A stretch of DNA of 21,736 bases from a virus, in the IMG/VR virus record IMGVR_UViG_3300032360_000055, positions 1 to 21,736 of that record. One strand, 5' to 3'. The notes under the pieces were generated by a model, which saw only the letters and a program-made list of their open reading frames with translations, had not been told where the DNA came from and searched no databases. The position numbers and the translations under genes were made by a program. Each line of letters opens with the position of its first letter. Position 1 is the first letter of the stretch. Positions 5,444-21,406 of the stretch are shown here, piece by piece.

Positions 5444-6163
5444 CTATACTTTTTGATCATTTTTTGTATCTTTTGCGTTTGGATTCTGGCTACAATTTTT
5501 ATAATATTCGTCAACTTTGCGAAGGAATGCATGTTGATGACCTACAAATTCCTTATCCGACACTTCAAACTTCTGAAAGAAGCCATCTTTTGAGCACATT
5601 AGAATTATTCCAGACTGTATCTTCGTACGGTAAATATAGTTATGGGCCATCGCATAGGCCCCAAGTTGGATGAAGTAGTCCTCTATCCATTCTCTTCTTT
5701 TGGGCTTGTTGGTTTGTTTGAAGTCTATTATACTTTCGCGCCCGTTATAAATTCCCACTACATCAGTCGCACCAGCGTACAAATCTGGGTAATATAGGGT
5801 AACCTCACTGCCCCATATTTCATTTAAGTCAATTAAACCGTCACTAATAATCTTTTTGGCCATGGGTTCTGCTTCCTTGCCCACTGACGTCAGGTCCTTG
5901 TGCCCTGTTCCCCGAATATAAGCGTCCAGATACGTGTGCATGGCTGTACCGCGTAGGGCTGCTACATCTCTAACTCTATCAGCTGCCTGAGCCCCGAGTC
6001 TTGCCTTCCAATCCGCTAATGATTTCTTCTTCTCCTCCGACTGGGTTGCGCCAATGATCGTTGTAACACTTGGTAACTTTGTTTGTTCAATATCATAGTG
6101 ACGTTTTCCATCGATCAGGGACCGTTGAGACTTCGGGTATATAAATTTTTTATTCCACTTCAT
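5444..6163 (-). CDS. RecB/Cas4-like PD-(D/E)XK exonuclease
   Basis: The start at 6163 (MKWNKKFIYP) shares ATGA with the stop of the upstream tiny gene and gives 239 residues; a longer frame to 6235 would run back over that gene. The family signatures are all present: LPSVTTIIGAT (30-40), LADWKARLG (49-57), LRGTAMH with H76, WGSE with E120, YAGATD with D134, and DFK with D147/K149, followed by EDYFIQLGAYA. This is the metal-dependent core of phage and RecB-type exonucleases, which process double-stranded ends for recombination, replication restart or host DNA breakdown. It is last in the halogenase operon. The C-terminal 25 residues are polar and probably disordered. Confidence 0.85.
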   Translation of the reverse strand: MKWNKKFIYPKSQRSLIDGKRHYDIEQTKLPSVTTIIGATQSEEKKKSLADWKARLGAQAADRVRDVAALRGTAMHTYLDAYIRGTGHKDLTSVGKEAEPMAKKIISDGLIDLNEIWGSEVTLYYPDLYAGATDVVGIYNGRESIIDFKQTNKPKRREWIEDYFIQLGAYAMAHNYIYRTKIQSGIILMCSKDGFFQKFEVSDKEFVGHQHAFLRKVDEYYKNCSQNPNAKDTKNDQKV

Positions 6164-6279
6164 CCACCCCATCCTAACGCAGCACCGAGTACTATTCCAA
6201 TAAGCATAAGCGGTATCACTATAGTTAGAGGCCAAAAGTCTAAAAATTCTAATATAAATTTTTTAGTTTTCTTTTTCAT
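6160..6279 (-). CDS. Tiny single-pass membrane peptide
   Basis: A 39-residue frame begins with MKKKTKKF and continues with a hydrophobic segment through about residue 36 (FWPLTIVIPLMLIGIVLGAA), ending in GWGG. The basic start and single span predict the N-terminus inside. Both ends are ATGA overlaps, with the gene before (6276-6386) and with the exonuclease after. Function unknown; size and topology would allow a lysis-accessory role. Confidence 0.6.
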   Translation of the reverse strand: MKKKTKKFILEFLDFWPLTIVIPLMLIGIVLGAALGWGG

Positions 6280-6386
6280 TTCCAATACTGCTCCTTCATG
6301 CATTTATTCACAGCTATCATCAGCAGAATCCATCGGCCACGTGGCCAGATAGACAGAGACAAAGAGGTTACTAAAGCTGTCCTCAT
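6276..6386 (-). CDS. Tiny amphipathic or membrane-active peptide
   Basis: A 36-residue frame (beginning MRTALVTSLSLSIWPRGRWI) links by ATGA overlaps to the 6383-6478 gene before it and the 6160-6279 gene after it. It has two short hydrophobic stretches (ALVTSLSLSIW and WILLMIAV) separated by PRGR, then a charged tail (NKCMKEQYWK). The first stretch is too short for a classical signal peptide. The double coupling is the main evidence of translation. Function unknown. Confidence 0.55.
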   Translation of the reverse strand: MRTALVTSLSLSIWPRGRWILLMIAVNKCMKEQYWK

Positions 6387-6478
6387 AGAACCACCACCAG
6401 CATGTAAATTGATAACAGAGTCATCAAACCTAAAAAGGTGAAGATGAAAACAAATATTTTATCTCTGGGATCTTTCAT
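6383..6478 (-). CDS. Tiny single-pass membrane peptide
   Basis: A 31-residue frame starts two bases after the halogenase stop codon. After a charged start (MKDPRDK) almost all of it is hydrophobic (IFVFIFTFLGLMTLLSIYML), one membrane span with a very short tail. Its TGA overlaps the next ATG. No ribosome site is visible, so it may depend on ribosomes finishing the halogenase. Function unknown. Confidence 0.55.
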   Translation of the reverse strand: MKDPRDKIFVFIFTFLGLMTLLSIYMLVVVL

Positions 6479-6480
6479 AT

Positions 6481-8049
6481 TTAATAAATTTTATTGGTTA
6501 GAAAATTATAATACGTAGGCATTTGTTTAACCACTCTCATTTGTTTTTTAATCTTATCCAAAATTTGTTTTTTACCTCGCTCCCAACCAGAATGCATAGA
6601 GGTAGTATCCCCTCCACATTTTGAATGTTTAAGGCTCATCCAATCTGTTGGGAACCAGTGCATACCATGAGCAATACAATCTAATCCTCCTGGAGTAGGT
6701 TCGTAATAAAATTTATTAAATTTTTTATCGCATGCATCCATAAAGCCCTTGTAAATAGTAGGCTCCCCTGTATACAAACCCTTACAATATTCTCTTTCTT
6801 GAACATCTTTCCAATATTGCGTATCGTCTCTTTGAGTTAAGGCAAAGTGTATGGCGACAAATTCAGCAAAACTTCTAAACATATCCTTACATTTATAATT
6901 AAATGCATCTCTATCGAATCGAGAAACTGTATCTCTTTGTAGTATTCGTGAGAGTTGTAATAGAAATTCATGGACAGTGTACAAACCATTACTCTCTAAG
7001 GGTTCAATAAATCCTGCAGCTAGACCAATAGCACATACGTTTTTAACAAAGGGTCTTTGGTGTATACCTACCCTCATTTTAATAGTTTTAAACTCCGAGT
7101 TTTTTATTTCATGATTACCTTTTTTTAAGTACTCTTTAAAATCTATAATAGCCTGTTCATCAGAAATATATTTATCGGAATAAACATAACCTGTTCCAAT
7201 TCTACTCCATAAAGGAATTTCCCAAATCCAACCATTGTCATAAGCGACACAGTTAGTATAGGGCACCACTTCTTTTCTATGATTTTTATATGGAACTTTA
7301 GTTGTAACAGCTGAATTATTAGGCAGGATATCTTCATAGCTTTCAAAAGGTTCTTTCAAAGCTTTGTCTATAAGAAGAGCCTTGAATCCTGTACAATCTA
7401 TAAACAGATCCGCACTAATAGGTTTATGGCCATCCACCATAATCTCTTTGATTCCAGTACTGTCTACGACTGTATTGGTCACATCTCCGACAATATGTTT
7501 AACCCCTTTATTTAAAGCATGATTAGATTTTAAATATTGACCAAATTTAATGGCATCAAAGTGATAAGCCACATCTCGTTTAAAATTAAAGCCTAGAAAT
7601 TTGTTATCTTGATTATCAGTCATTTTATTATTATTGACTAACAACATATTTTTATAATACCATTCTGCATAAGTATGAGCCGGCTCCGTGTCCCCTTCTT
7701 TAATTCTATTAAGAACCCAGTCATTGGCTCCCACTACACTTACTCCTGTGTCAGGTTTACCGAACGGGTAGTGAAAGTATTCTCCTTTTTTATAAAAGTC
7801 TTGAAAACGAATACTTAGTTTATAAGTAGCATCACATACTCTCATAAAATCTTCGTCTTCAATCTCCAATATACCAAGCCAATTATTAATTTGACCAATA
7901 GTGCTTTCCCCTACACCAACCGTTGGAGTGTTTGGACTTTCAATAAGTGTGATATCTTTATTAGGACAAGTTTTAGCCAACGTTGCTGCTGTCATCCACC
8001 CGGCTGAACCTCCTCCTACAATAACTATTTTAAAACGCTCCTCATTCAT
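6481..8049 (-). CDS. Flavin-dependent (tryptophan-type) halogenase
   Basis: The 522 residues match the flavin-dependent halogenase family in length and motif order. Visible motifs are the FAD Rossmann loop GGGSAGWMTA (12-21), GVGEST (45-50) of the FAD loop, and a Lys at position 77 where PrnA has its catalytic Lys79 (TYKLSIRF). Next are the hallmark WxWxIP as WIWEIP at about 274-279 and GLAAGFIEPLES at about 342-353 with the conserved Glu. Such enzymes use FADH2, O2 and halide to make a hypohalous acid that is channelled to the Lys and halogenates an electron-rich substrate, usually an indole. A separate flavin reductase is needed and none is seen here, so host FADH2 is presumed. All key residues are intact. 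It sits between a SET gene (4-base overlap) and tiny membrane peptides. Halogenases are known from cyanophages; the substrate is unknown. Confidence 0.92.
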   Translation of the reverse strand: MNEERFKIVIVGGGSAGWMTAATLAKTCPNKDITLIESPNTPTVGVGESTIGQINNWLGILEIEDEDFMRVCDATYKLSIRFQDFYKKGEYFHYPFGKPDTGVSVVGANDWVLNRIKEGDTEPAHTYAEWYYKNMLLVNNNKMTDNQDNKFLGFNFKRDVAYHFDAIKFGQYLKSNHALNKGVKHIVGDVTNTVVDSTGIKEIMVDGHKPISADLFIDCTGFKALLIDKALKEPFESYEDILPNNSAVTTKVPYKNHRKEVVPYTNCVAYDNGWIWEIPLWSRIGTGYVYSDKYISDEQAIIDFKEYLKKGNHEIKNSEFKTIKMRVGIHQRPFVKNVCAIGLAAGFIEPLESNGLYTVHEFLLQLSRILQRDTVSRFDRDAFNYKCKDMFRSFAEFVAIHFALTQRDDTQYWKDVQEREYCKGLYTGEPTIYKGFMDACDKKFNKFYYEPTPGGLDCIAHGMHWFPTDWMSLKHSKCGGDTTSMHSGWERGKKQILDKIKKQMRVVKQMPTYYNFLTNKIY

Positions 8050-8348
8050 ATTTTATAAAAAGTATAGGTTATTGTTAGTTCGTCTCCAGACTCAATGTCT
8101 TCAATAGCAAAGAGTCTCCACGTTTTGTAACTGGTCCCATTGTTGATACGAAACACACTCTTAGTACAATTGGGGTCATCCGAATGATTAATGAATCCTC
8201 CAAGTGGAGTTCTATATAATTCTTTTCCTATCTGGATATGAGAGATACCAAAGTCATGGCCTCTCTTAATATCTTTCTTAGCAAAGAGTCCAATGTCGTG
8301 AATCTCTGATTCTCCGAGTGTAAGTTCTTTAGGGAGTGGATTATACAT
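8046..8348 (-). CDS. SET-domain protein (putative lysine methyltransferase)
   Basis: The 100 residues form a minimal SET fold. GLFAKKDIKRG (20-30) is the N-terminal strand signature and PLGGFINHSDDPNC (48-61) contains the NHSxxPNC knot that binds S-adenosylmethionine. GDELTITYTF near the C-terminus holds the Tyr region of the active site. This is shorter than most SET enzymes (about 130) but includes the core. It would transfer methyl groups to a lysine of a host or phage protein; the target is unknown. Start and stop overlap both neighbours (TAATG before, ATGA with the halogenase after). The post-SET Cys cluster is absent, as in many bacterial versions. Confidence 0.85.
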   Translation of the reverse strand: MYNPLPKELTLGESEIHDIGLFAKKDIKRGHDFGISHIQIGKELYRTPLGGFINHSDDPNCTKSVFRINNGTSYKTWRLFAIEDIESGDELTITYTFYKI

Positions 8349-8566
8349 TAATGTAGGGTTCCTTTTCTTATGTCATAAGGTACAACTTCTATTTCAGCGG
8401 CGACTTTCATAATTTTCTTATAGTCTTTCTCACTTAAATGAGTCTTGTAGAGTCTCTGAGAGATAACCATTAGACAGGCTGCAATCATTTCAATAGGGTG
8501 CTTCTCACTGAGTAATCGTATCACATGTTCTAAAACTTCATGATAAACTTTATCTTTTATATTCAT
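8348..8566 (-). CDS. Small helical protein, unknown function
   Basis: The 72-residue frame starts at an ATG overlapping the stop of the LAGLIDADG gene (ATGA) and ends at the SET gene's ATG. It is predominantly helical (EVLEHVIRLLSEKHPIEMIA, LSEKDYKKIMKVAAEI), soluble, with no catalytic motif. The overlaps on both sides argue that it is real. Function unknown; a partner for the SET protein is possible from position only. Confidence 0.65.
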   Translation of the reverse strand: MNIKDKVYHEVLEHVIRLLSEKHPIEMIAACLMVISQRLYKTHLSEKDYKKIMKVAAEIEVVPYDIRKGTLH

Positions 8567-8970
8567 TTAACTCCAAAGCCTCCCTTTCCAAAAACTTTTT
8601 TAGAAAAAATTTTGTCATAGTGATCAATAACAAGTTGTGATTTTTCCTTTTTTACAATTAAATATTTGTGAATCTGTTTTAGGACTCGGTAAACGCCTCG
8701 ATATCCGACGCGCCATCGATGCTGGTCTTGCCAGGTTTTCTGGTTTGGATAATGTTTCATGTCCCTGACCCCTTCTGCCGTAGTCGTCATCAAGTAATCA
8801 ATAAGTCTACCATCAACTTGGGGAACTTCCATACGAATGTTCCAAACCTTATGAACTGGTTTTCCTGGTCTGTCATGACGGATTCGATCGCGTTGTACAA
8901 ACTCAATACTTCCTTCACCGTCTATAATACCTGCAACATAAGACCGTTCGGTCGGAGTCATGTCTCTCAT
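8563..8970 (-). CDS. Free-standing LAGLIDADG-type homing endonuclease
   Basis: Starting at 8970 (the ATG overlaps the previous TGA), the 135-residue product has the dodecapeptide-like YVAGIIDGEGSIEF near residue 11. This is the LAGLIDADG signature whose acidic residue binds the catalytic metal. Further on, GVYRVLKQIHKYLIVKKEKSQLVI matches the conserved second helix region of these enzymes. A single motif means it would act as a homodimer, cutting a pseudo-palindromic site of about 20 base pairs. It is not inside a visible intron or intein and is coupled on both sides to operon genes, so it may be domesticated or carried as a selfish free-standing gene. Confidence 0.8.
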   Translation of the reverse strand: MRDMTPTERSYVAGIIDGEGSIEFVQRDRIRHDRPGKPVHKVWNIRMEVPQVDGRLIDYLMTTTAEGVRDMKHYPNQKTWQDQHRWRVGYRGVYRVLKQIHKYLIVKKEKSQLVIDHYDKIFSKKVFGKGGFGVK

Positions 8971-9158
8971 CAACCACTTCCATCCAGTTTAAATAATTTT
9001 TCTAACTCTTGCTTGTGCACTAAGTTATCGTATTGTCGGTCCTCTTTTTCTCGAGCCAGTTCCGCTTTAACGTCTTCAATTTCTTTTTGCAAATCCTTGA
9101 TTTTTTCGGATAACGCTTCGTAGTTCTTTATTCTTTTCATATCTACCTCAGTCAGCAT
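8970..9158 (-). CDS. Small coiled-coil protein
   Basis: The start at 9158 (MLTEVDMKRI) has AAAGGG upstream and gives 62 residues; a further in-frame ATG at 9140 also has GAGG in front. From residue 7 the sequence is a continuous charged helix with heptad-spaced Leu/Ile (YEALSEKIKDLQKEIEDVKA), a typical coiled coil. It overlaps the end of the lipoprotein gene and the start of the endonuclease gene. Function unknown. Confidence 0.6.
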   Translation of the reverse strand: MLTEVDMKRIKNYEALSEKIKDLQKEIEDVKAELAREKEDRQYDNLVHKQELEKLFKLDGSG

Positions 9159-12964: not shown

Positions 12965-14821
12965 TTAATCGTATATATCACCCCAATTAGACCCGAACTC
13001 ATAGTCTACTTTATTGGGAATTTCAAGTGTAACAGCATTCTCCATAATCTCAACGATTTTTTGGGCATCTTTTTCATTCTCAATAGACAGATCAAGTTCA
13101 TCATGAATTTGAATATGTGCTGTAATTCCTTCTTTATACAACTCTAGCATAGATTTTTTTGTCATGTCAGCCGCTGACCCTTGAATTAATTTATTTAAAG
13201 ATTTGTATGTGTAAGCTCTTCTAATCCCTGGTCCATGTTCCCTGAGTGCATCTTCATGCGACATGGCCTTATGCATACCAAAACTATTGGGTTCCCATAA
13301 ATGGAATCTACAAAGTCTTCCAAGTAAAGTTCTTATCTGTCCCCGATCCTGTGCTCTGTTAGAAGCTTTCTCCATTAGCTGTTTAACAAAGGGAACTTTA
13401 GCGTGGTATTGATTAAATAATTCTGCTGCTTTATCTTTTGTTACTCCTAATTCTGCTTGTAGTTTAGCTTTCCCCATTCCATAAAATAACCCTAAATTAA
13501 TGGTCTTGGCCTGCGTTCTTGGAATTTCTGCCATGTCTGCTACGGTTTGATGGAAATCTGATTTAATATTATTTTTATAGGAATCTACAACATCGTAAAC
13601 TGAAGGTAGTTTATAGAGTGATGCATAATGAACAACGAGTCTTGGTTCTTGCTGATTGTAGTCAAAACATCCCCACTTACATCCTTCTTCAGGTATAAAC
13701 AAACTTCTAATCTTGGGGCCTAGATCTTTGTTTCTTGCAGGAATCTGTTGGAGGTTAGGATTTTGATATGAAAATCTTCCAGTTACAGTTCCACCACCAG
13801 CATTTCTAAGTTGGTTGATCTCTGCGTGTATTCTGCCTTTATGTTCATATCTTAAAATAGAATCTATAAAAGTTGTATGAGCTTTATTAATCTCTCTTGC
13901 TTTGGCAATCATATTAACGACGGGATGTTTGTGTTCTTGTAAAAAATTTTTAGTAAAGCTTGGAGCTGAAGTTTTATCCGTCCGTGGATATTCTAATCTT
14001 AATACATCAAAGACATTCGCAATTGATCTTGCAGCCCATATCTGTGTGTCTATATTTGTTTCTCCTTTTATCTTATGTAATAATTCTTGTTCTGATTTTT
14101 TAAATTCTGTCTTCATCGCTTGAGCTCTTTCAATATCTACACGTACACCTTTGAATCGCATGTCCACAAGACATGGAAATAAATCGGTTTCTAGATCAAA
14201 TATATCTTCTAAATCTTGATGAAGTATTTCTTTTTTCATTTCTTGCCACAGACCCAGGGTTACCTCTGCGTCTCTCTCTGCATACGACCCTACATGCATC
14301 GCTGGAAGTTTATACATCTCAGCTTTGGGATCTATACCCCATTCCTCTGCTGCTTCTGCTAATGCTCTTTCATTTTTACCATATCCTAGATAATGCCAAG
14401 ATAAACTATTAAGGTCATACCTGAATCTATTTTCATCTGTCACGGCTGCAGCCAGCATCGTACACACAATGTTACCATTTATTTTAAAACCCATAGCTCT
14501 TAACCAGCAAACGTCATAGATTGCATTGTGAAATATTTTTGTGGAAGAGGAGTCTAATATATCTTTTAACCACTCCAATACTTTCTTACGATCCATATTA
14601 CCGCCGCCTTCATGGGCAATGGGAAAATATCCTTTGTAAAAAGAAGTAGCGACAGCGATGCCTATAACTTCTCCATTACCAATAATAGAACCAGATCCTT
14701 TTTTAATTAGGTCAGGATCTTTTGTTTCTAGATCGATTGCAATTTCATCTACTTGTCTTAAGTCTGGAAATTCAGTGGGTTTTACCCATTCTGTCTGGGC
14801 TTCAAATTTAGGTATTCTCAT
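12965..14821 (-). CDS. polA: Family A DNA polymerase with 3'-5' exonuclease
   Basis: The 618-residue enzyme has a DnaQ-like proofreading domain: exo I DLE (D30, E32), exo II in FHNAIYD, and exo III in YAERDAEV. The polymerase domain carries motif A FDYNQQEPR (around 385), motif B RTQAKTINLGLFYG (435-448) and motif C QIHDELD (around 568). There is no 5'-3' exonuclease domain, as usual for phage replicative Pol A. The residue equivalent to E. coli Phe762 is Leu443. Schmidt and others linked Leu762 variants in marine viruses to slower, more faithful enzymes and proposed a link to temperate or pseudo-temperate life. All catalytic residues are present. It probably copies the phage genome with the primase and helicases of the same operon. 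Confidence 0.95.
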   Translation of the reverse strand: MRIPKFEAQTEWVKPTEFPDLRQVDEIAIDLETKDPDLIKKGSGSIIGNGEVIGIAVATSFYKGYFPIAHEGGGNMDRKKVLEWLKDILDSSSTKIFHNAIYDVCWLRAMGFKINGNIVCTMLAAAVTDENRFRYDLNSLSWHYLGYGKNERALAEAAEEWGIDPKAEMYKLPAMHVGSYAERDAEVTLGLWQEMKKEILHQDLEDIFDLETDLFPCLVDMRFKGVRVDIERAQAMKTEFKKSEQELLHKIKGETNIDTQIWAARSIANVFDVLRLEYPRTDKTSAPSFTKNFLQEHKHPVVNMIAKAREINKAHTTFIDSILRYEHKGRIHAEINQLRNAGGGTVTGRFSYQNPNLQQIPARNKDLGPKIRSLFIPEEGCKWGCFDYNQQEPRLVVHYASLYKLPSVYDVVDSYKNNIKSDFHQTVADMAEIPRTQAKTINLGLFYGMGKAKLQAELGVTKDKAAELFNQYHAKVPFVKQLMEKASNRAQDRGQIRTLLGRLCRFHLWEPNSFGMHKAMSHEDALREHGPGIRRAYTYKSLNKLIQGSAADMTKKSMLELYKEGITAHIQIHDELDLSIENEKDAQKIVEIMENAVTLEIPNKVDYEFGSNWGDIYD

Positions 14822-14856: not shown

Positions 14857-15033
14857 CTAGCTTGTTGATCCGTACACTTCCTTTCCACCTTTGTAGGGGT
14901 GCCTACATATATATTTAATAACATTTCCTTCTGGAAAAAGCAACTTGTTCTCGATTACGAATTTACTTGGCTGTATTTTCATTTTCCTGTAGTGTGTTCC
15001 GCCGATTTGTTTATTGTAGACTTTCGATGTCAT
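14857..15033 (-). CDS. DUF3310-type small protein, apparently short at the C-terminus
   Basis: Starting at 15033 (MTSKVYNKQIGGTHYRKMKI) with AGGAGG upstream, the 58-residue product contains the DUF3310 core: YNKQIGGTHY, IQPSKFVIENKL and EGNVIKYICRH. Related domains occur in T7 gp1.7, a nucleotide kinase, so a role in nucleotide metabolism is a possibility but not shown. The family usually continues after CRH-x-x-K-G-G-x-E with a helix of the type KAxHYLELL. Here it ends in KEVYGSTS, so the helix is missing. The start overlaps the helicase gene by 23 bases. Confidence 0.75.
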   Translation of the reverse strand: MTSKVYNKQIGGTHYRKMKIQPSKFVIENKLLFPEGNVIKYICRHPYKGGKEVYGSTS

Positions 15034-16498
15034 ATCCTTTATCCTCCTTTTTTGCCGCCATGATATATAAATTTTGTTTAGTACGTGTGACGCCCACATA
15101 CCATACTCTGTTTTCTTCATCCTCTTTGTCTTGACTTTTTTCGATAGCCTCCCTGATAGTTTTAGTATTATCTAAGATAAGAAGAACATTATCCGCTTCC
15201 CCACCTTTAGCTGCATGAATCGTTGATAGTTTAACCCTGGCTTCTTTGGATAATTCTTCATCACTTTGAAGCATATCTCTAATATATAAACTGTCCTCAG
15301 GTTCAGTTTCAAAAATTTCAAACCATGGCACGATTGGGACATAACCAAATTCTTTTAGATCATACATTCGTTCTTCCTTTTGTGGAAAGTCTTTACCTAG
15401 ATATTCAAAAAGATCACGACATTCTGAGATAGAAAGTAATGATCCATTGGTCCAACGCGTGTAGTTTTGTATGGCTGAATAGAGTCTTGTTTTATAACTT
15501 TTTCTATCTTTATATTCGAAATAAATTCCCATCTCCCTAAGAATAGGTTTAAGTTTTATTAGTTTATCATTATATCTAGCTAACACTAACCATTTTCCTT
15601 CATGTAAAGGAACATCTTCGATAGATGTACCAAAATATATTGAGCCGTCTTCATCTCGGGCTTCCCATTTTTTTTTCAGTCTCCGTTCATCTGGTATTTT
15701 ACTTAAAATATTGGCAGCAATGTGTTGGACTAATCTAGGAACTCGATAAGATTGGGGTAATACTATTTCTTTTGCAGGCTCTTGTTGAAATCTTTTAACA
15801 TCTGCTCCGGCCCAACCGTAAATAGCTTGATCATCATCACCAGCTAATATAATATGTTTAGAATTTTTCTTTAAAACATCAAACATTTTCCATTGAATCG
15901 GCGATAAGTCCTGTGCTTCATCAATAAAAACGACGTCATATTTTGGACATAATTCTGCCATAATGAATTTTTCAATCATATCTGTAAAATCTTTAAGGTG
16001 AAAGGACTCTTTATAATTATTTAATTCATCTCTTAAAATATATAATAAATTTTTTTCTAGATCGTAAGAATACATGCCGGTGTTGTACTCTTGCTCAATG
16101 GATATTTCTTTGATTCTTGCCGCATTAATTAAATTAAAATATTCACTGTCTGAATCTACGAAACCTGTTTTTTCTTCTCCATTACTATAAACTGTTACTT
16201 CTATACCTACACTTCTACCTATATCTTCGTAGTGTTCGTCCTGCATCACCTCACTTTTTTTCATTCCCAGTTTCCAGAATGCTAGAGAATGTAAAGTTCT
16301 AAAATGTTTTAAATCTTTTTCCTTGAGTTTTTTATTTTGGTCCAACATTCTTTCCTTAGCTTCTGTGGCAGCTTTTTTTGTAAAAGCAAAATACCCTATT
16401 TTGTCAATTGGAGTTCCTAGTTTAAGAAAAGTTCGGGCGTAATGTAAGAGACGAGTTGTTTTCCCTGTTCCCGGAGGCCCGAGTATTTTTCTCATCAT
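15011..16498 (-). CDS. UvrD/Rep-like superfamily 1 DNA helicase
   Basis: The 495 residues show every SF1A motif in order: Walker A GPPGTGKTT (7-15), Ia FAFTKKAATEA, LRTLHSLAF, motif II VFIDEAQD, and motif III LAGDDDQAIYGWAGAD. Then come IV LPQSYR, V LSTIHAAKGGEADNV and VI VWYVGVTR. It should be an ATP-driven 3'-5' DNA translocase unwinding ahead of the polymerase or removing bound proteins. It is shorter than bacterial UvrD (about 720) because the 1B/2B insertions are reduced, as in phage versions. Its ATG shares ATGA with the primase stop; two ATGs stand in tandem and either may be used. Confidence 0.92.
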   Translation of the reverse strand: MMRKILGPPGTGKTTRLLHYARTFLKLGTPIDKIGYFAFTKKAATEAKERMLDQNKKLKEKDLKHFRTLHSLAFWKLGMKKSEVMQDEHYEDIGRSVGIEVTVYSNGEEKTGFVDSDSEYFNLINAARIKEISIEQEYNTGMYSYDLEKNLLYILRDELNNYKESFHLKDFTDMIEKFIMAELCPKYDVVFIDEAQDLSPIQWKMFDVLKKNSKHIILAGDDDQAIYGWAGADVKRFQQEPAKEIVLPQSYRVPRLVQHIAANILSKIPDERRLKKKWEARDEDGSIYFGTSIEDVPLHEGKWLVLARYNDKLIKLKPILREMGIYFEYKDRKSYKTRLYSAIQNYTRWTNGSLLSISECRDLFEYLGKDFPQKEERMYDLKEFGYVPIVPWFEIFETEPEDSLYIRDMLQSDEELSKEARVKLSTIHAAKGGEADNVLLILDNTKTIREAIEKSQDKEDEENRVWYVGVTRTKQNLYIMAAKKEDKGYDIESLQ

Positions 16499-18135
16499 AA
16501 GATTTCCGTTTTATGTTTTATTTGAGTATGATGAATGGGGACGTTTTCAAATTCTTTTATAGAAATTTTTACAATATTTTTAGTAGGTGTATTATATTTT
16601 CCTTTATCTTTGGCAGGGAATCTTTTTTGATCTAGAAATTCTATTTCACATTTTTTATAGGTCGCTTCCATCATGGTGCCTGTTTTATCTTCACTATATT
16701 TCCAGTTCTTGGACTTTAATTTGTCATAAAATTTATCAAATTTAAAAAAAGCATATCCTTCTTCTATTAAAACTGTTCCTGTCTTGAATCCTGCATCATT
16801 CATAGCTTTAGGACCATTAATTTTGGCATGAAGTACATCATGTAATTTTTCTTTAGAGGATGTTCCTATCGGAGGGTTAACTATTTTTTCAGTTTTCCAC
16901 AAAGCATCCAGAACTATTTGATCTTTATCTCCTTTGATAATTGGAGGAGCAAATCCTGCAGCTTTAGATATTGAGTTTCTTCTTTTACGTTGGTCGTTTA
17001 CATGTTCAACCGAACGACAATGGACGGTAGCTGTGCTTACTCCATCAGATTTAATTACATCGAATTCATATTCTGGCTCAGGATCGAGATCTATTTTTTT
17101 AAGATTAGTTAAGATTGGATAAGTTCCTTTTGATCCTGCTAAAACTCCAAATTTTTTCTTAACACAAATTCCTTTTTTACAATAATCATTGATAGGACTT
17201 TCAGTACAAGTAAATCCTTTTTCAGATTTATTCCACGATCTTATTTTTGCATTAAGAATTCTGTCGTCCCACGCATTAGCATGTTGTTGTTCAAAATATT
17301 TTACTGGTGCATTTTTAACTTTTTGTTTCCAAGTATCTTCATACTTCATCTTCACAAATACATGATAATTATACATAAATCTGTCTTTGCCATCAAAGGC
17401 AGGATTCTTCATAATCTTGCTAAGTGTGGCTAGACAAGGTGGTCCATCTTTAAATTCTTCATCGGCGCCTTCATAAATTGCCTGATCAATGCCTTCAGTA
17501 ATTTTATTTAATTCATCTGGATTTACTAAATTGGATTCGATTAAAGGTATGAAGTGTTCAAAAGTGAATTCGGTTCCGTCTATGTTTAAAGCTCTTCTTT
17601 CTGTTTTATTAAAATAAGGCAAATTAATAAATTGTCCTGGTCTTAAACCACCTCGCTCAAGATCCCGAGTCAGTTGGGTTTGTTTGGGAAAAATTTCTGT
17701 GTCTGCTTTTAGGTTAAAGAGGGGAAGAAGATTACTTAAAAAAGATTTTAATGTGGCTGCATCTACAAACTTTTCCATAAAGATATATAAATGAAGGGCC
17801 CCACTTTTTGATAGAATAGGGATAAGAGGGAGTTTGTATTCTTGAATTTTATCTATAATAAATTTTTTATCAAAATGCTCATAGTGCGATGGATCAATGT
17901 CAATAAGTCCAAATTTAGTTTCGCCTGCTTCATTACATGGCTGAATTCCAATTGATTTAGTTCCGTTTAAGTGATCAATGTAAACTTGATCAGTGAGTTC
18001 TTCATAATTCCAGCGATAGTCTCCTGGTTTTAATCTAAGTTTTCCGCTATCGGGATCACGATAAGCATTCTTGATATTAGCGACACCATACGCTCCGCGA
18101 TAACCATTAAAAATCTGTATATATTTCTTTTCCAT
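16495..18135 (-). CDS. AEP-superfamily primase (TOTE-type) with Cys cluster
   Basis: The 546-residue protein has the archaeo-eukaryotic primase core. FGLIDID supplies the metal-binding D79 and D81, SKSGALHLYIF supplies the SG-x-x-H motif with H115, and a third acidic motif TEIFPKQ is at about 146-152, followed by RPGQFINLPY. This order is typical of TOTE-type and phage/plasmid primases that start chains on single-stranded DNA, sometimes with polymerase activity. Four Cys at 234, 310, 319 and 324 (PCL; FTCTESPINDYCKKGIC) could hold a zinc ion or an Fe-S cluster like that of PriL. The C-terminal 200 residues have no clear domain. It replaces the T7-type primase-helicase, which is absent from the window. 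Confidence 0.85.
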   Translation of the reverse strand: MEKKYIQIFNGYRGAYGVANIKNAYRDPDSGKLRLKPGDYRWNYEELTDQVYIDHLNGTKSIGIQPCNEAGETKFGLIDIDPSHYEHFDKKFIIDKIQEYKLPLIPILSKSGALHLYIFMEKFVDAATLKSFLSNLLPLFNLKADTEIFPKQTQLTRDLERGGLRPGQFINLPYFNKTERRALNIDGTEFTFEHFIPLIESNLVNPDELNKITEGIDQAIYEGADEEFKDGPPCLATLSKIMKNPAFDGKDRFMYNYHVFVKMKYEDTWKQKVKNAPVKYFEQQHANAWDDRILNAKIRSWNKSEKGFTCTESPINDYCKKGICVKKKFGVLAGSKGTYPILTNLKKIDLDPEPEYEFDVIKSDGVSTATVHCRSVEHVNDQRKRRNSISKAAGFAPPIIKGDKDQIVLDALWKTEKIVNPPIGTSSKEKLHDVLHAKINGPKAMNDAGFKTGTVLIEEGYAFFKFDKFYDKLKSKNWKYSEDKTGTMMEATYKKCEIEFLDQKRFPAKDKGKYNTPTKNIVKISIKEFENVPIHHTQIKHKTEIL

Positions 18136-18156
18136 AAGTATCTTTCCATGGGCCCT

Positions 18157-18186
18157 TCAGTCTCCCTCCAGGCCCACGTCATGCAT
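18157..18186 (-). other. Possible leader peptide with hairpin ahead of the primase gene
   Basis: The 71-base gap between the 18207 gene and the primase contains AGGAG seven bases before an ATG that opens a 9-codon frame (MHDVGLEGD) ending at 18157. TGGGCC and GGCCCA (plus-strand 18171-18176 and 18149-18154) can pair around it. This could regulate primase translation or be chance. Confidence 0.3.
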
Positions 18187-18206
18187 GCTTTTCTCCTAAG
18201 AGAAAA

Positions 18207-18980
18207 TTAGAAATGCGATTCAGACCCTTTTGGTTTTTCCTCGCCATGTTTTGCTTGAACATTTCCTTTGGAAATGTTTTCAGAAAACGTTTTGGCTTGT
18301 TGATAGAGTGAACTATCACTGACTGGTCCTACCTTACTTACTTCCCAACCAAACCAAGTGCCCTTGTCATTAGACAATTGAGTTGTTTTTAGTCTGTAAA
18401 TATGGCTAAAAGATGCTGGAGTAAATAATCCATCTTTACCTTTTAGTTTTAAACCACTCATCATTGAGTTCCATTTTCTACTAATTTTTAATTGAGTAGA
18501 CTTCATAGAAATCAAGGCTGTTGAGGGACTATCTCCTAAGACAATCACAAAGTGTGATGCAGTTTTTTCGATGTAATTACCATTAGGTAATCTATCTTTA
18601 TAATTTGCATCTGCCTTTGTTTTTGACATGATGTCGGATGAAGATGGGTAGATGTTAATGGGTGCACCTAGACCTTCTCCTCTATCCTTCCATTCAAGAT
18701 ATTCAAGTTTATAAAAAGCTGGAATAACATTAATGCCTTCCGTCCCATCATATAACTCTCCAGTAACAGAATTGTAAATCATTCCTGCTTCTGCACCTTC
18801 CACATATTTACCATCCCTTTTATTTACTTCAGGAGATAATTGTGCAAGGATTTTTAAGAAAGGCAACGCTAAGTCTTGTTGACCTATACTGCCTAATCCT
18901 TTCCCCATGTCATCTTCAAACACATTGGCTGGAAGAGGAGCATCGGTTTTTTTTGTCATGGTTCCTTGTTCTTTGTTCAT
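18207..18980 (-). CDS. Replication-module protein, possible ssDNA-binding or recombination factor
   Basis: The 257-residue protein has no enzymatic motif. It has a disordered start, a conserved-looking segment (QQDLALPFLKILAQLSPEVN), then KYVEGAEAGMIYNSVTGELY and a beta-rich middle (INVIPAFYKLEYLEWKDRG, HFVIVLGDSPSTALISMKST). A polar tail ends in GSESHF. The strand-rich centre and terminal Phe would suit a ssDNA-binding function, and the position just ahead of primase supports a replication role, but this is inference. Two starts are possible: 18980 (AAGGA ten bases before) and 18959 (AAGGAACC just before). I remember this pattern from marine podovirus replication modules as an unnamed protein. 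Confidence 0.75.
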   Translation of the reverse strand: MNKEQGTMTKKTDAPLPANVFEDDMGKGLGSIGQQDLALPFLKILAQLSPEVNKRDGKYVEGAEAGMIYNSVTGELYDGTEGINVIPAFYKLEYLEWKDRGEGLGAPINIYPSSSDIMSKTKADANYKDRLPNGNYIEKTASHFVIVLGDSPSTALISMKSTQLKISRKWNSMMSGLKLKGKDGLFTPASFSHIYRLKTTQLSNDKGTWFGWEVSKVGPVSDSSLYQQAKTFSENISKGNVQAKHGEEKPKGSESHF

Positions 18981-18982
18981 GA

Positions 18983-19534
18983 TTATTTTTTCCTTGTTAT
19001 TTTTGTTCTGTTGCCCGTGAACAGGTTAAAAAGATCAGAGGGAATCTCTTGTCCAGATTCTAAACGCTCTCTGACCAATGCTTTAAGTGTCATAGGTTCA
19101 ACCTTTAATTTCTGGACAGGTTGATACCCTTGACCTTTTGCAAGGATCGCATATTGCGATGCCTTGGTGTCTTCGTCACGACCAAAAGCAACAGTAACCT
19201 CATTTTTAATAAGATCACCTAGGCCGTTATCTCGAAGCCATTTAAAAGCTTCTTCTCGTTTTGCAACGGGAATTGAAGCTCCGTAGACGGGTTTAACTTC
19301 AACCGAAGATCCGTCTGCGAGTTTTAATGTGGAGATGTTCATTTCCTGCATCATTGTAGGAATGATTTCTCCTGAAACTAATTCCACTTTTCTTTTAAGT
19401 TCTTTTAGTTCCGTTTCTTTGTTAGCTAATTCATCTTCTAGATTCGTTAGCTTAACTACTTGATCAGATAATTTATTAGATTCATTTACTGAATCCAAGT
19501 CCTTTCTCTGGTCTTTTTCAAAATCAATTGTCAT
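18983..19534 (-). CDS. Phage protein with N-terminal coiled coil, unknown function
   Basis: Residues 20-60 of 183 form a coiled coil (VVKLTNLEDELANKETELKE). Then comes a compact domain with STLKLADGSSVEVKPVYGAS and FKWLRDNGLGDLIKNEVTVA. The C-terminus has VEPMTLKALVRERLESGQEI, SDLFNLF and a basic end (RTKITRKK). The layout (coiled coil, small beta-hairpin domain, helical C-terminus) is a recurrent phage type usually next to ssDNA-binding and primase genes. It could be a Gam-like nuclease inhibitor or scaffold; no residue pattern proves either. It overlaps the 19524 gene by 11 bases and ends three bases before the next ATG. Confidence 0.75.
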   Translation of the reverse strand: MTIDFEKDQRKDLDSVNESNKLSDQVVKLTNLEDELANKETELKELKRKVELVSGEIIPTMMQEMNISTLKLADGSSVEVKPVYGASIPVAKREEAFKWLRDNGLGDLIKNEVTVAFGRDEDTKASQYAILAKGQGYQPVQKLKVEPMTLKALVRERLESGQEIPSDLFNLFTGNRTKITRKK

Positions 19535-19907
19535 CTATTTCTCCTTTCTCAAAAATGTTAATAGCAATGGAATAATAAACTTTATCTTGTTTATCCCATT
19601 TGAGTAATTGATATTTACCGTTAGTTATATCAGATACAATAGAACATGCTACTCCAATGATAGCCGGATCCCCGGTTAATAATAAGTAATCCGTTGTCTT
19701 ATAATCTTTTAAAAGATTACGAAGTTTAAATATTAATGGACCTGGCGAAAAGATTATTTGAGAAAACTCTGGTAATAAAAATTTAAATTTTCCATATTTA
19801 GATGCACTCATAATATTTATTTTAGGAGCCCCAGCTTTTGTGCCAGGTATTTCCTGTATAACATATACAATAGGCGAGTTTTCACCGCTTCCTAGTACAC
19901 TAAACAT
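19524..19907 (-). CDS. First gene of the replication operon, unknown function
   Basis: The 127-residue frame follows the promoter at 19935-19963 with a leader of about 20 bases containing AAAGGA. The pattern is beta-rich: MFSVLGSGENSPIVYVIQEI, APKINIMSASKYGKFKFLLP and TTDYLLLTGDPAIIGVACSI. It ends in an acidic tail (FEKGEIDDN). The NSPIVYVIQEI and GDPAIIG stretches look conserved and structural rather than catalytic. Being first in the operon it is expected to be expressed early. Function unknown. Confidence 0.75.
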   Translation of the reverse strand: MFSVLGSGENSPIVYVIQEIPGTKAGAPKINIMSASKYGKFKFLLPEFSQIIFSPGPLIFKLRNLLKDYKTTDYLLLTGDPAIIGVACSIVSDITNGKYQLLKWDKQDKVYYSIAINIFEKGEIDDN

Positions 19908-19925
19908 TTTATATCCTTTCTAACA

Positions 19926-19954
19926 TTGACAAATGTTATAGTTTATCCTATAAA
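19926..19954 (+). promoter_or_regulatory. Promoter for the SNF2-like helicase
   Basis: TTGACA (19926-19931), 17 bases, TATAAA (19949-19954). Start expected near 19961, leaving about 12 bases of leader with only AAGAAAG as ribosome site. It is interleaved with the divergent promoter at 19935-19963. Confidence 0.75.
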
Positions 19955-19963
19955 AGAAGTCAA
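19935..19963 (-). promoter_or_regulatory. Promoter for the replication operon
   Basis: Minus-strand TTGACT (19958-19963), 17 bases, TATAAC (19935-19940). The two divergent promoters share a central inverted repeat, TTATAG (19936-19941) and CTATAA (19948-19953). One regulator bound there could control both directions. Confidence 0.75.
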
Positions 19964-19972
19964 GAAAGAAAT

Positions 19973-21406
19973 ATGAATTATAAGTTTAAGACAAAGCCCT
20001 ATGAGCATCAGTTAAAAGCTTTAGAGGTTTCCTGGGAGAAAACCTATTTCGCATATTTTATGGAAATGGGTACCGGTAAATCAAAAGTTTTATTAGATAA
20101 TATAGCCATGCTGTATGATAATGGAAAAATTAATGGCGCTTTAATTGTGGCTCCTAAAGGAGTTGTAGGAACCTGGTATGATCAGGAAATACCAACCCAT
20201 CTTCCGGATCATATAGAAAATAAGGTAATATTATGGCAAGCAAATATTACTAAAGAACAATCTAGAAAATTAGGCACGTTATTTAAAACAGGGGAAGAAC
20301 TTCATATATTAATTATGAATGTAGAAGCTTTTTCAACTCAGAAAGGCAGAGATTTTGCCACTAAGTTTTTATCTTGTCATAATACTTTATTCGCGATTGA
20401 TGAAAGTACTACGATAAAAAATCCGGATGCAAAAAGAACTAAAAATATTTGTTCATTGGCTCCTCATGCTAAGTATAGAAGAATTCTTACAGGTTCTCCG
20501 GTTACTAAATCTCCCTTAGATCTCTATAAACAATGCGATTTTTTAGAGCCAGAATTATTGGGGCATACTTCTTATTATACATTTAGAACACGCTATGCAG
20601 TGATGAGAACAGCCAACTTTGGAGGACGCTCGGTTCAAATAGTAGTTGGGTATAGCCATCTTGAAGAATTGGCTGAAAAATTAAAAGCTTTTTCTTTCAG
20701 AGTATTGAAAGATGAGTGTTTAGATTTGCCGGCTAAAACTTATATGAAAAGAATTATTAAATTAACGCCTGAGCAAGAAAAAGTTTATAAACAAATGAAG
20801 CATTTAGCATTAGCTCAAATGGAGGGTAAGATGATGACTACTGCTACAGTTTTAACCCAGCTTATGAGACTCCAACAAATTAATTGTGGTCATTTCACTG
20901 CCGATGATGGAACTATTAAACCCATAAAAAATAATCGAATAACTGAACTGCTTGACACGTTGGAAGAGATACACGGAAAAGTTGTTATTTGGGCCCATTA
21001 CCAGTACGATGTAGAAACAATCGTAGAACATCTTAAAAAAGAATACGGAGATAATTCAGTAGTAACTTATTACGGAAAAACTCCTATGAATGAGCGTCAA
21101 GATAATATTCAAAAATTTCAGGATCTCGAAAGTTCTGTAAGGTTTTTAGTTGGAACAACTCAAACAGGTGGCTATGGAATAACACTGACGGCCGCATCTA
21201 CTATGATTTATTATTCTAATGGATATGATTTAGAGAAGCGCCAACAGTCGGAAGCGAGAATTGATAGAATCGGTCAACATTTCCCTATGACGTATATTGA
21301 TCTTATGGTAGAAGATACAATTGATGAAAGAATCGTTAAAGCTTTGAGAAAAAAAATAAATATTGCTACTAAGATCATGGGTGAAGAATTAAAATCATGG
21401 ATTTAA
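19973..21406 (+). CDS. SNF2-like superfamily 2 helicase/translocase
   Basis: The 477 residues carry the SNF2/Rad54-type motifs. YEHQLKAL is the Q-like start, MGTGKSK (32-38) is Walker A, and APKGVVGTW is motif Ia. DEST (143-146) stands in place of DEAH in motif II. Next are LTGSPVTKSP (motif III), VIWAHYQYD (IV), VGTTQTGGYGITLTAA (V) and SEARIDRIGQ (VI) with the arginine fingers. These proteins use ATP to move along double-stranded DNA, remodelling protein-DNA complexes or joints. The Ser-Thr end of motif II is unusual, but Asp and Glu are kept. It is transcribed divergently from the replication operon and overlaps the downstream oxygenase gene by ten bases. Confidence 0.9.
   Translation: MNYKFKTKPYEHQLKALEVSWEKTYFAYFMEMGTGKSKVLLDNIAMLYDNGKINGALIVAPKGVVGTWYDQEIPTHLPDHIENKVILWQANITKEQSRKLGTLFKTGEELHILIMNVEAFSTQKGRDFATKFLSCHNTLFAIDESTTIKNPDAKRTKNICSLAPHAKYRRILTGSPVTKSPLDLYKQCDFLEPELLGHTSYYTFRTRYAVMRTANFGGRSVQIVVGYSHLEELAEKLKAFSFRVLKDECLDLPAKTYMKRIIKLTPEQEKVYKQMKHLALAQMEGKMMTTATVLTQLMRLQQINCGHFTADDGTIKPIKNNRITELLDTLEEIHGKVVIWAHYQYDVETIVEHLKKEYGDNSVVTYYGKTPMNERQDNIQKFQDLESSVRFLVGTTQTGGYGITLTAASTMIYYSNGYDLEKRQQSEARIDRIGQHFPMTYIDLMVEDTIDERIVKALRKKINIATKIMGEELKSWI

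Follow-up and report, generated by a model that had tools for sequence, protein, structure and literature searches.

A VirX1-type halogenase gene in the replication region of a pelagiphage-type genome, and a glycine-rich tail protein as candidate target of its viral relatives

Genes for halogenases, enzymes that put chlorine, bromine or iodine onto other molecules, turned up already in the first cyanomyovirus genomes and have been known from marine phages ever since. One such enzyme, VirX1 of cyanophage Syn10, with its preference for iodide and its broad substrate range, serves as a biocatalyst; to our knowledge no native substrate of VirX1 and no halogenated phage protein has been described. 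The question of what a phage halogenates is raised again by a gene on a 21,736-base IMG/VR contig, which was analyzed over its full length and is called the window in the following. The initial annotation had described this gene as a complete flavin-dependent halogenase (FDH) that is related to VirX1 and lies in an operon unlike that of Syn10, and had suggested that it acts on a host metabolite, signal or defence compound.

The open reading frame runs from an ATG start to a TAA stop and encodes 522 uninterrupted amino acids. It matches Pfam Trp_halogenase PF04820 (1e-109, 367.9 bits at a cut-off of 21) and PHROG 2928 'tryptophan halogenase' (5e-150, residues 7-516), and the best relative of solved structure in tblastn and phmmer searches is VirX1, with 41% identity over the full length. 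The gene and the residues discussed below are located as follows:

6481-8049, minus strand: VirX1-like FDH, 522 amino acids, assigned by PF04820, phrog_2928, VirX1 homology, clade and fold
7996-8016, minus strand: FAD-binding motif GGGSAGW, residues 12-18, read in the protein
7819-7821, minus strand: Lys77, equivalent of the catalytic K79 of PrnA, invariant in the alignments
7768-7770, minus strand: Tyr94, at the position of the substrate-stacking H101 of PrnA
7213-7230, minus strand: halogenase motif WIWEIP (WxWxIP), residues 274-279, read in the protein
6991-7014, minus strand: GFIEPLES, residues 346-353, with E352 as equivalent of PrnA E346 (alignment; 2jkc E346D entry)

GxGxxG, WxWxIP and the catalytic Lys and Glu, the hallmarks of the FDH superfamily, are thus all found, at the places where they had been annotated. 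An alignment to PrnA, whose sequence was taken from the PDB match and whose E346 position is fixed by the 2jkc E346D entry, identified the second Glu of EPLES (E352) as the catalytic Glu, and the equivalents of Lys77 and E352 are invariant across the bacterial and viral FDHs compared. The dN/dS ratio to the nearest relative, the copy on contig L002, is about 0.18 (0.066/0.363), and therefore the gene is under purifying selection. The evidence that 6481-8049 is a complete FDH far exceeds chance, and sequence and fold together predict an intact enzyme.

An AlphaFold model of the protein (mean pLDDT 92.4) has its best structural match in VirX1 (6qgm; Z 46.6, 2.0 Å over 511 residues), followed by PyrH, SttH and PrnA (Z 40-42), and all top matches are FDHs. 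In the phylogeny, the viral FDH sequences and VirX1 form one clade apart from PrnA and the bacterial FDHs (100% SH-aLRT). The window copy falls inside this clade, grouping neither with PrnA nor with non-halogenating monooxygenases, as sister to the copy on L002 (98-99% support) and nested among copies from late gene regions. One sequence from a bacterial MAG, the only bacterial FDH found in the viral clade, also falls there; it is encoded at 5977-7578 of a Myxococcota/Deltaproteobacteria contig (L263) with no obvious phage genes and is 46% identical to the window copy. An FDH from a gut contig and that of the T4-like pelagiphage HTVC008M were placed outside the VirX1 clade on uncertain branches. 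The latter is likewise an FDH of a SAR11 phage and is located between a dioxygenase gene and a terminase gene, but it shares only 31% identity with the window copy and sits on a long branch in the larger tree.

PrnA, RebH and PyrH share with the window enzyme the superfamily, the WxWxIP motif, the catalytic Lys and Glu and the fold (Z 38-42), but they form a separate clade, and their clamp for tryptophan is not conserved. At the position of PrnA H101 all 77 viral contig sequences shown carry Tyr, whereas nearly all bacterial rows carry His; the segment with Y443, Y444 and E450 is a gap in the window FDH and absent from the viral sequences shown, and W455 aligns with Tyr449. By alignment, the tryptophan-binding features of PrnA (H101, Y443, Y444, E450, W455) thus appear to be missing from an enzyme that keeps the catalytic residues. 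VirX1 resembles the window FDH in clade, in catalytic residues and in the Tyr at the H101 position, in addition to the identity and the fold score given above. The setting differs: in Syn10, a T4-like cyanophage, VirX1 is the second of two FDH genes in tandem, with Gly/His-rich tail genes on one side and a cassette of 2OG-Fe(II) oxygenase genes on the other, whereas the window holds a single copy in a pelagiphage-type replication region, adjoining a SET gene. Both the relation to VirX1 and the different operon, as originally noted, are therefore borne out, and the window FDH extends the VirX1 kind to a new phage group and a new slot.

More than 20 genes of the contig have homologues with conserved order in both Pelagibacter phage HTVC027P and phage 023Pt_psg01. 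These genes include:

12965-14821, minus strand: DNA polymerase A, which marks the phage group, 64% identical to HTVC027P and 60% to 023Pt_psg01
15011-21406, no single strand assigned: helicase, AEP-type primase, Pam3 gp34/33/32-like proteins and SNF2 helicase, in HTVC027P order

Membership in the HTVC023P/HTVC027P type was judged by collinear replication genes and a DNA polymerase A identity of about 60% or more. Since the window shows both, we assign it to the replication region of a pelagiphage of this type and not to a cyanophage. SAR11 as host is suggested by the relative HTVC027P only, which shares the collinear replication region and has a 2OG-Fe(II) gene (gp73) at its late site but differs in having no halogenase. 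The primase at 16495-18135 matches the AEP domain of TOTE conflict systems (PF22548). Within the 21,736 bases of the window we recognised no flavin reductase, no tail gene, no small-molecule pathway or biosynthetic partner genes and no pyrrolnitrin-like genes.

The halogenase is preceded, in transcription order, by an HNH-like gene, a small conserved gene and a SET gene and followed by an exonuclease gene:

8563-8973, minus strand: homologue of HTVC027P gp25 (annotated as putative HNH homing endonuclease), upstream border of the slot, assigned by homology, no Pfam match
8348-8566, minus strand: small conserved protein upstream of SET, with same-order homologues in L018, L021, L023 and L027-L029
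8046-8348, minus strand: minimal SET-domain protein, 100 amino acids (PF00856, 46 bits), directly upstream of the FDH
5444-6235, minus strand: exonuclease (phrog_298; 51% to HTVC027P gp27), downstream border of the slot, true start probably near 6163

The stop codon of the SET gene overlaps the FDH start (ATGA). We fetched 80 related loci with the exonuclease, and 53 of them cover the slot completely, with both the HNH-like gene and the exonuclease in view; here a SET gene occupies the same place in six and a 2OG-Fe(II) oxygenase gene is present in nine, and an FDH in none. Other occupants are a glycosyltransferase-like protein, a relative of recombination endonuclease VII and peptide deformylase. 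The glycosyltransferase-like protein (weak Anp1 match) is frequent in this slot among the closest relatives of the window phage (L021 1821-2561, L028 5094-5792, L033 5307-6023). Relatives of the SET protein, which is lysine methyltransferase-like, are common in viral contigs (253 confirmed matches), and some of them sit between a gene like that at 14857-15120 and the DNA polymerase gene. The stretch is an accessory slot, and an FDH in it is so far unique to the window contig. An exact search with 33 bases found the SET-FDH junction in no other viral contig, although near copies of the window genome may be hidden from such a search. A conserved SET-halogenase pair as a general unit was rejected, as all of the loci fetched with the exonuclease (80) or with SET (80) lack an FDH.

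The nine nearest viral FDHs (L002-L010, 67-87% identity to the window copy) have a different address. None is in the replication slot; all are in a late region collinear with HTVC027P gp64-gp85, with their immediate surroundings corresponding to gp69-gp75, where HTVC027P itself has gp73 and lacks a halogenase. There they lie among 2OG-Fe(II) oxygenase genes, with a Gly-rich tail-type ORF upstream and a phrog_3287 virion protein, the gp75 homologue, downstream; the shorter contigs show this arrangement in part, and the Gly-rich ORF is seen where the contig reaches it. A late tail cassette, defined as an FDH with 2OG-Fe(II) genes on its flanks and a Gly-rich tail gene beside it, is therefore present in L002-L010 and not around the window copy, from which these closest relatives also differ in having a longer, Lys-rich C-terminus. 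The simplest history would be that the FDH moved from the late cassette into the slot of the replication region; the window copy now differs from the nearest late copy by 13%.

The tail address extends beyond the nearest relatives. At least one flanking 2OG-Fe(II) gene was found in 69 of 77 further viral FDH loci, compared with 21/80 and 19/80 in two sets of viral control loci, which are mainly replication regions, and 4/80 bacterial FDH loci (Fisher 1.6e-16, 1e-17 and 4e-30, respectively). After clustering at 80% identity the association persists in 59 of 66 clusters, 42 of them with a directly adjacent 2OG gene. Gly-rich tail-type ORFs, defined by 15% Gly or more, accompany 57/98 viral FDH loci and 0/160 control loci. 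When late modules were picked by their gp75-like gene instead, 2OG genes were present in 43/43 and an FDH in only 3, so that the association of both reflects a shared address: the 2OG genes are constant residents of late modules and the FDH is an optional one. This weakens the association as direct proof of a joint function.

In Syn10, whose Gly-rich tail proteins are CPUG_00134 and CPUG_00135, VirX1 follows the Gly/His-rich tail genes and precedes a long 2OG-rich gene run, and its homologues in S-CREM1, S-WAM1 and S-SZBM1 show the same arrangement with 2OG annotations. Cyanophages S-B64 and S-MbCM6 carry an FDH outside the tail module, next to recombination genes and beside psbA, respectively. 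Tandem FDH pairs as in Syn10 (L175 4473-7578; also L176, L180 and L181) recur in S-RIM44, P-RSM6 and P-TIM40, and the two enzymes may act at different sites. Three further contigs (L254 4485-5618, L255 4484-5944, L256 4498-5568) have a Gly-rich tail-type ORF with 2.5-3.7% His just upstream of the FDH and no 2OG gene in view; this would be the simplest form of the enzyme-target pair proposed below.

A Gly-rich protein that is modified by an FDH encoded next to it would be expected to differ from its counterparts in modules lacking the enzyme. The comparison covered 120 distinct late modules, 36 with and 84 without FDH, whose sequence is complete between the Gly-rich ORF and gp75. In the last 300 residues of the Gly-rich protein His makes up 1.42% with FDH and 0.49% without (p 9e-14), while the smallest p among the other 19 residues is 0.015 for Pro, with Tyr at 0.035 and Trp at 0.07; the comparison was also made in a 280-residue version. 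The idea for this test came from the data themselves, and the first set is part of the larger one used for its repetition. In the phylogeny of the gp75-like protein there were 14 phylogenetically independent pairs differing in FDH; the member with FDH had more His in 12.0 of these and less in 0.7 (median p 0.0018), with no other residue at a median p below 0.1. The tree of the Gly-rich protein itself yielded six pairs only, too few to decide (3.7 versus 0.1, p 0.125). Of the proteins with FDH, 13/29 have a His no more than 14 residues from the first Gly-run anchor, compared with 2/73 of those without (p 5e-7); this motif was picked once the data were known. None of the 2OG families of the cassette predicts His comparably in loci without FDH, and a particular 2OG family as the true correlate of His is therefore unsupported. 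Trp and Tyr were dropped as covarying residues because the comparison that had pointed to them mixed phage types; within one module type Trp is null and Tyr marginal.

Among isolates, the Gly/His-rich tail protein beside VirX1 in Syn10 has 11 His in 272 amino acids; a search of 50,697 phage records detected relatives of it in 12, and every one of these encodes an FDH. The FDH-free pelagiphages HTVC200P, HTVC025P and MedDCM-OCT-S42-C7 have 0.3-0.7% His in their Gly-rich protein. Melnitz-3 is an exception, since it has no FDH match and its Gly-rich ORFs contain 0.9-1.8% His and a GHHSGGGG motif. More generally, His in these proteins could have a role in metal binding. The presence of an FDH predicts about three times more His in the Gly-rich tail protein, which is a correlation in sequence data.

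Taken together, we favour halogenation of a virion tail protein, with His as the leading candidate residue, over a host metabolite as target. That the Gly-rich tail protein of the virion is the native target of the viral clade, halogenated on His and less clearly on Tyr, with the window copy acting in trans, has in our view close to an even chance of being right. More tentative is the extended proposal that VirX1-type FDHs are tail-maturation enzymes which halogenate His of their own Gly-rich adhesin in concert with the 2OG-Fe(II) oxygenases. The imidazole ring can be halogenated chemically. By analogy with the family, reduced FAD would come from a flavin reductase of the host, which is proposed because none was recognised in the window, and FADH2, O2 and halide would give hypohalous acid in the FAD site. 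Lys77 would carry or orient the hypohalous acid and Glu352 would assist at the target ring, which would be rich in electrons and lie in an open pocket devoid of the clamp for free tryptophan. Comparative genomics points to the Gly-rich tail protein encoded beside most copies as the substrate of the viral clade; His side chains, less clearly Tyr, would be the halogenated sites, the peptides around GGGGSGHGESGG would be candidate substrates, and the FDH would work together with the 2OG-Fe(II) oxygenases of the same cassette. For the window FDH one further step of reasoning is needed, because the contig has no tail gene: the enzyme would have to act in trans, on a tail protein whose gene lies beyond the window. 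The active site of VirX1 is large and open, with K79 near the substrate (PMC8407142), and by analogy such a site is compatible with a peptide loop.

The same enzyme modifies many free small aromatics in vitro (PMC8407142), which counts against a tail protein as target and speaks for the reading of the initial annotation, an auxiliary metabolic gene whose product halogenates a free host metabolite, signal or defence compound. That reading gains from the position of the window copy in the replication region, outside the tail module, from the cyanophage FDHs beside psbA or recombination genes, and from the glycosyltransferase-like, peptide deformylase and 2OG genes that share the slot in relatives. 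However, neither a biosynthetic partner nor a dedicated flavin reductase was recognised in the window, most viral FDHs, including the 2OG-associated relatives, lie beside tail genes, and an enzyme for free metabolites does not predict that the FDH covaries with one residue type of a tail protein. We therefore regard a host metabolite as a live rival, though a less probable one, and do not favour it. A narrower version, a PrnA-type halogenase of free L-tryptophan, goes back to earlier papers that named the phage gene prnA and offered antibiotic protection as speculation (PMC2984593, PMC9964418). The superfamily and the catalytic residues are in common, but the separate clade, the Tyr in place of the Trp-stacking H101, the missing Trp lid residues and the lack of pyrrolnitrin-like genes in the window leave this role hardly credible, and a free-tryptophan or pyrrolnitrin function was rejected for reasons of clade and pocket.

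Two other explanations concern the unusual position rather than the chemistry. The FDH is translationally coupled to the SET gene through the ATGA overlap and might act within the replication region together with its neighbours, for example by sharing target proteins, of host or phage, with the SET-domain protein. This seems improbable to us, as the SET gene occupies the slot without an FDH in all six related loci, SET relatives elsewhere have no FDH nearby and the pairing was seen once. It is also conceivable that the position is an assembly chimera or that the gene is decaying cargo, given a junction found in no other viral contig and related slots free of FDH. The clean start and stop junctions, the translational coupling, the divergence from the nearest late copy, the low dN/dS and the fully intact catalytic residues make this very improbable.

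The 2OG cassettes of HTVC023P-type phages have been described with no halogenase mentioned (PMC9599517), and we found no paper proposing halogenation of a tail protein in the literature searched, which covers a minority of subscription papers. The address in the tail cassette and the covariation with His provide a specific and testable candidate substrate. If the proposal is true, phage adhesins are halogenated, and probably hydroxylated as well, by the phages' own enzymes. This would matter for the way in which viruses of bacteria that rank among the most abundant in the ocean recognise their hosts, and it would guide the choice of substrates for VirX1-type enzymes. A receptor-binding surface modified in this way would be a previously unknown post-translational chemistry of virions.
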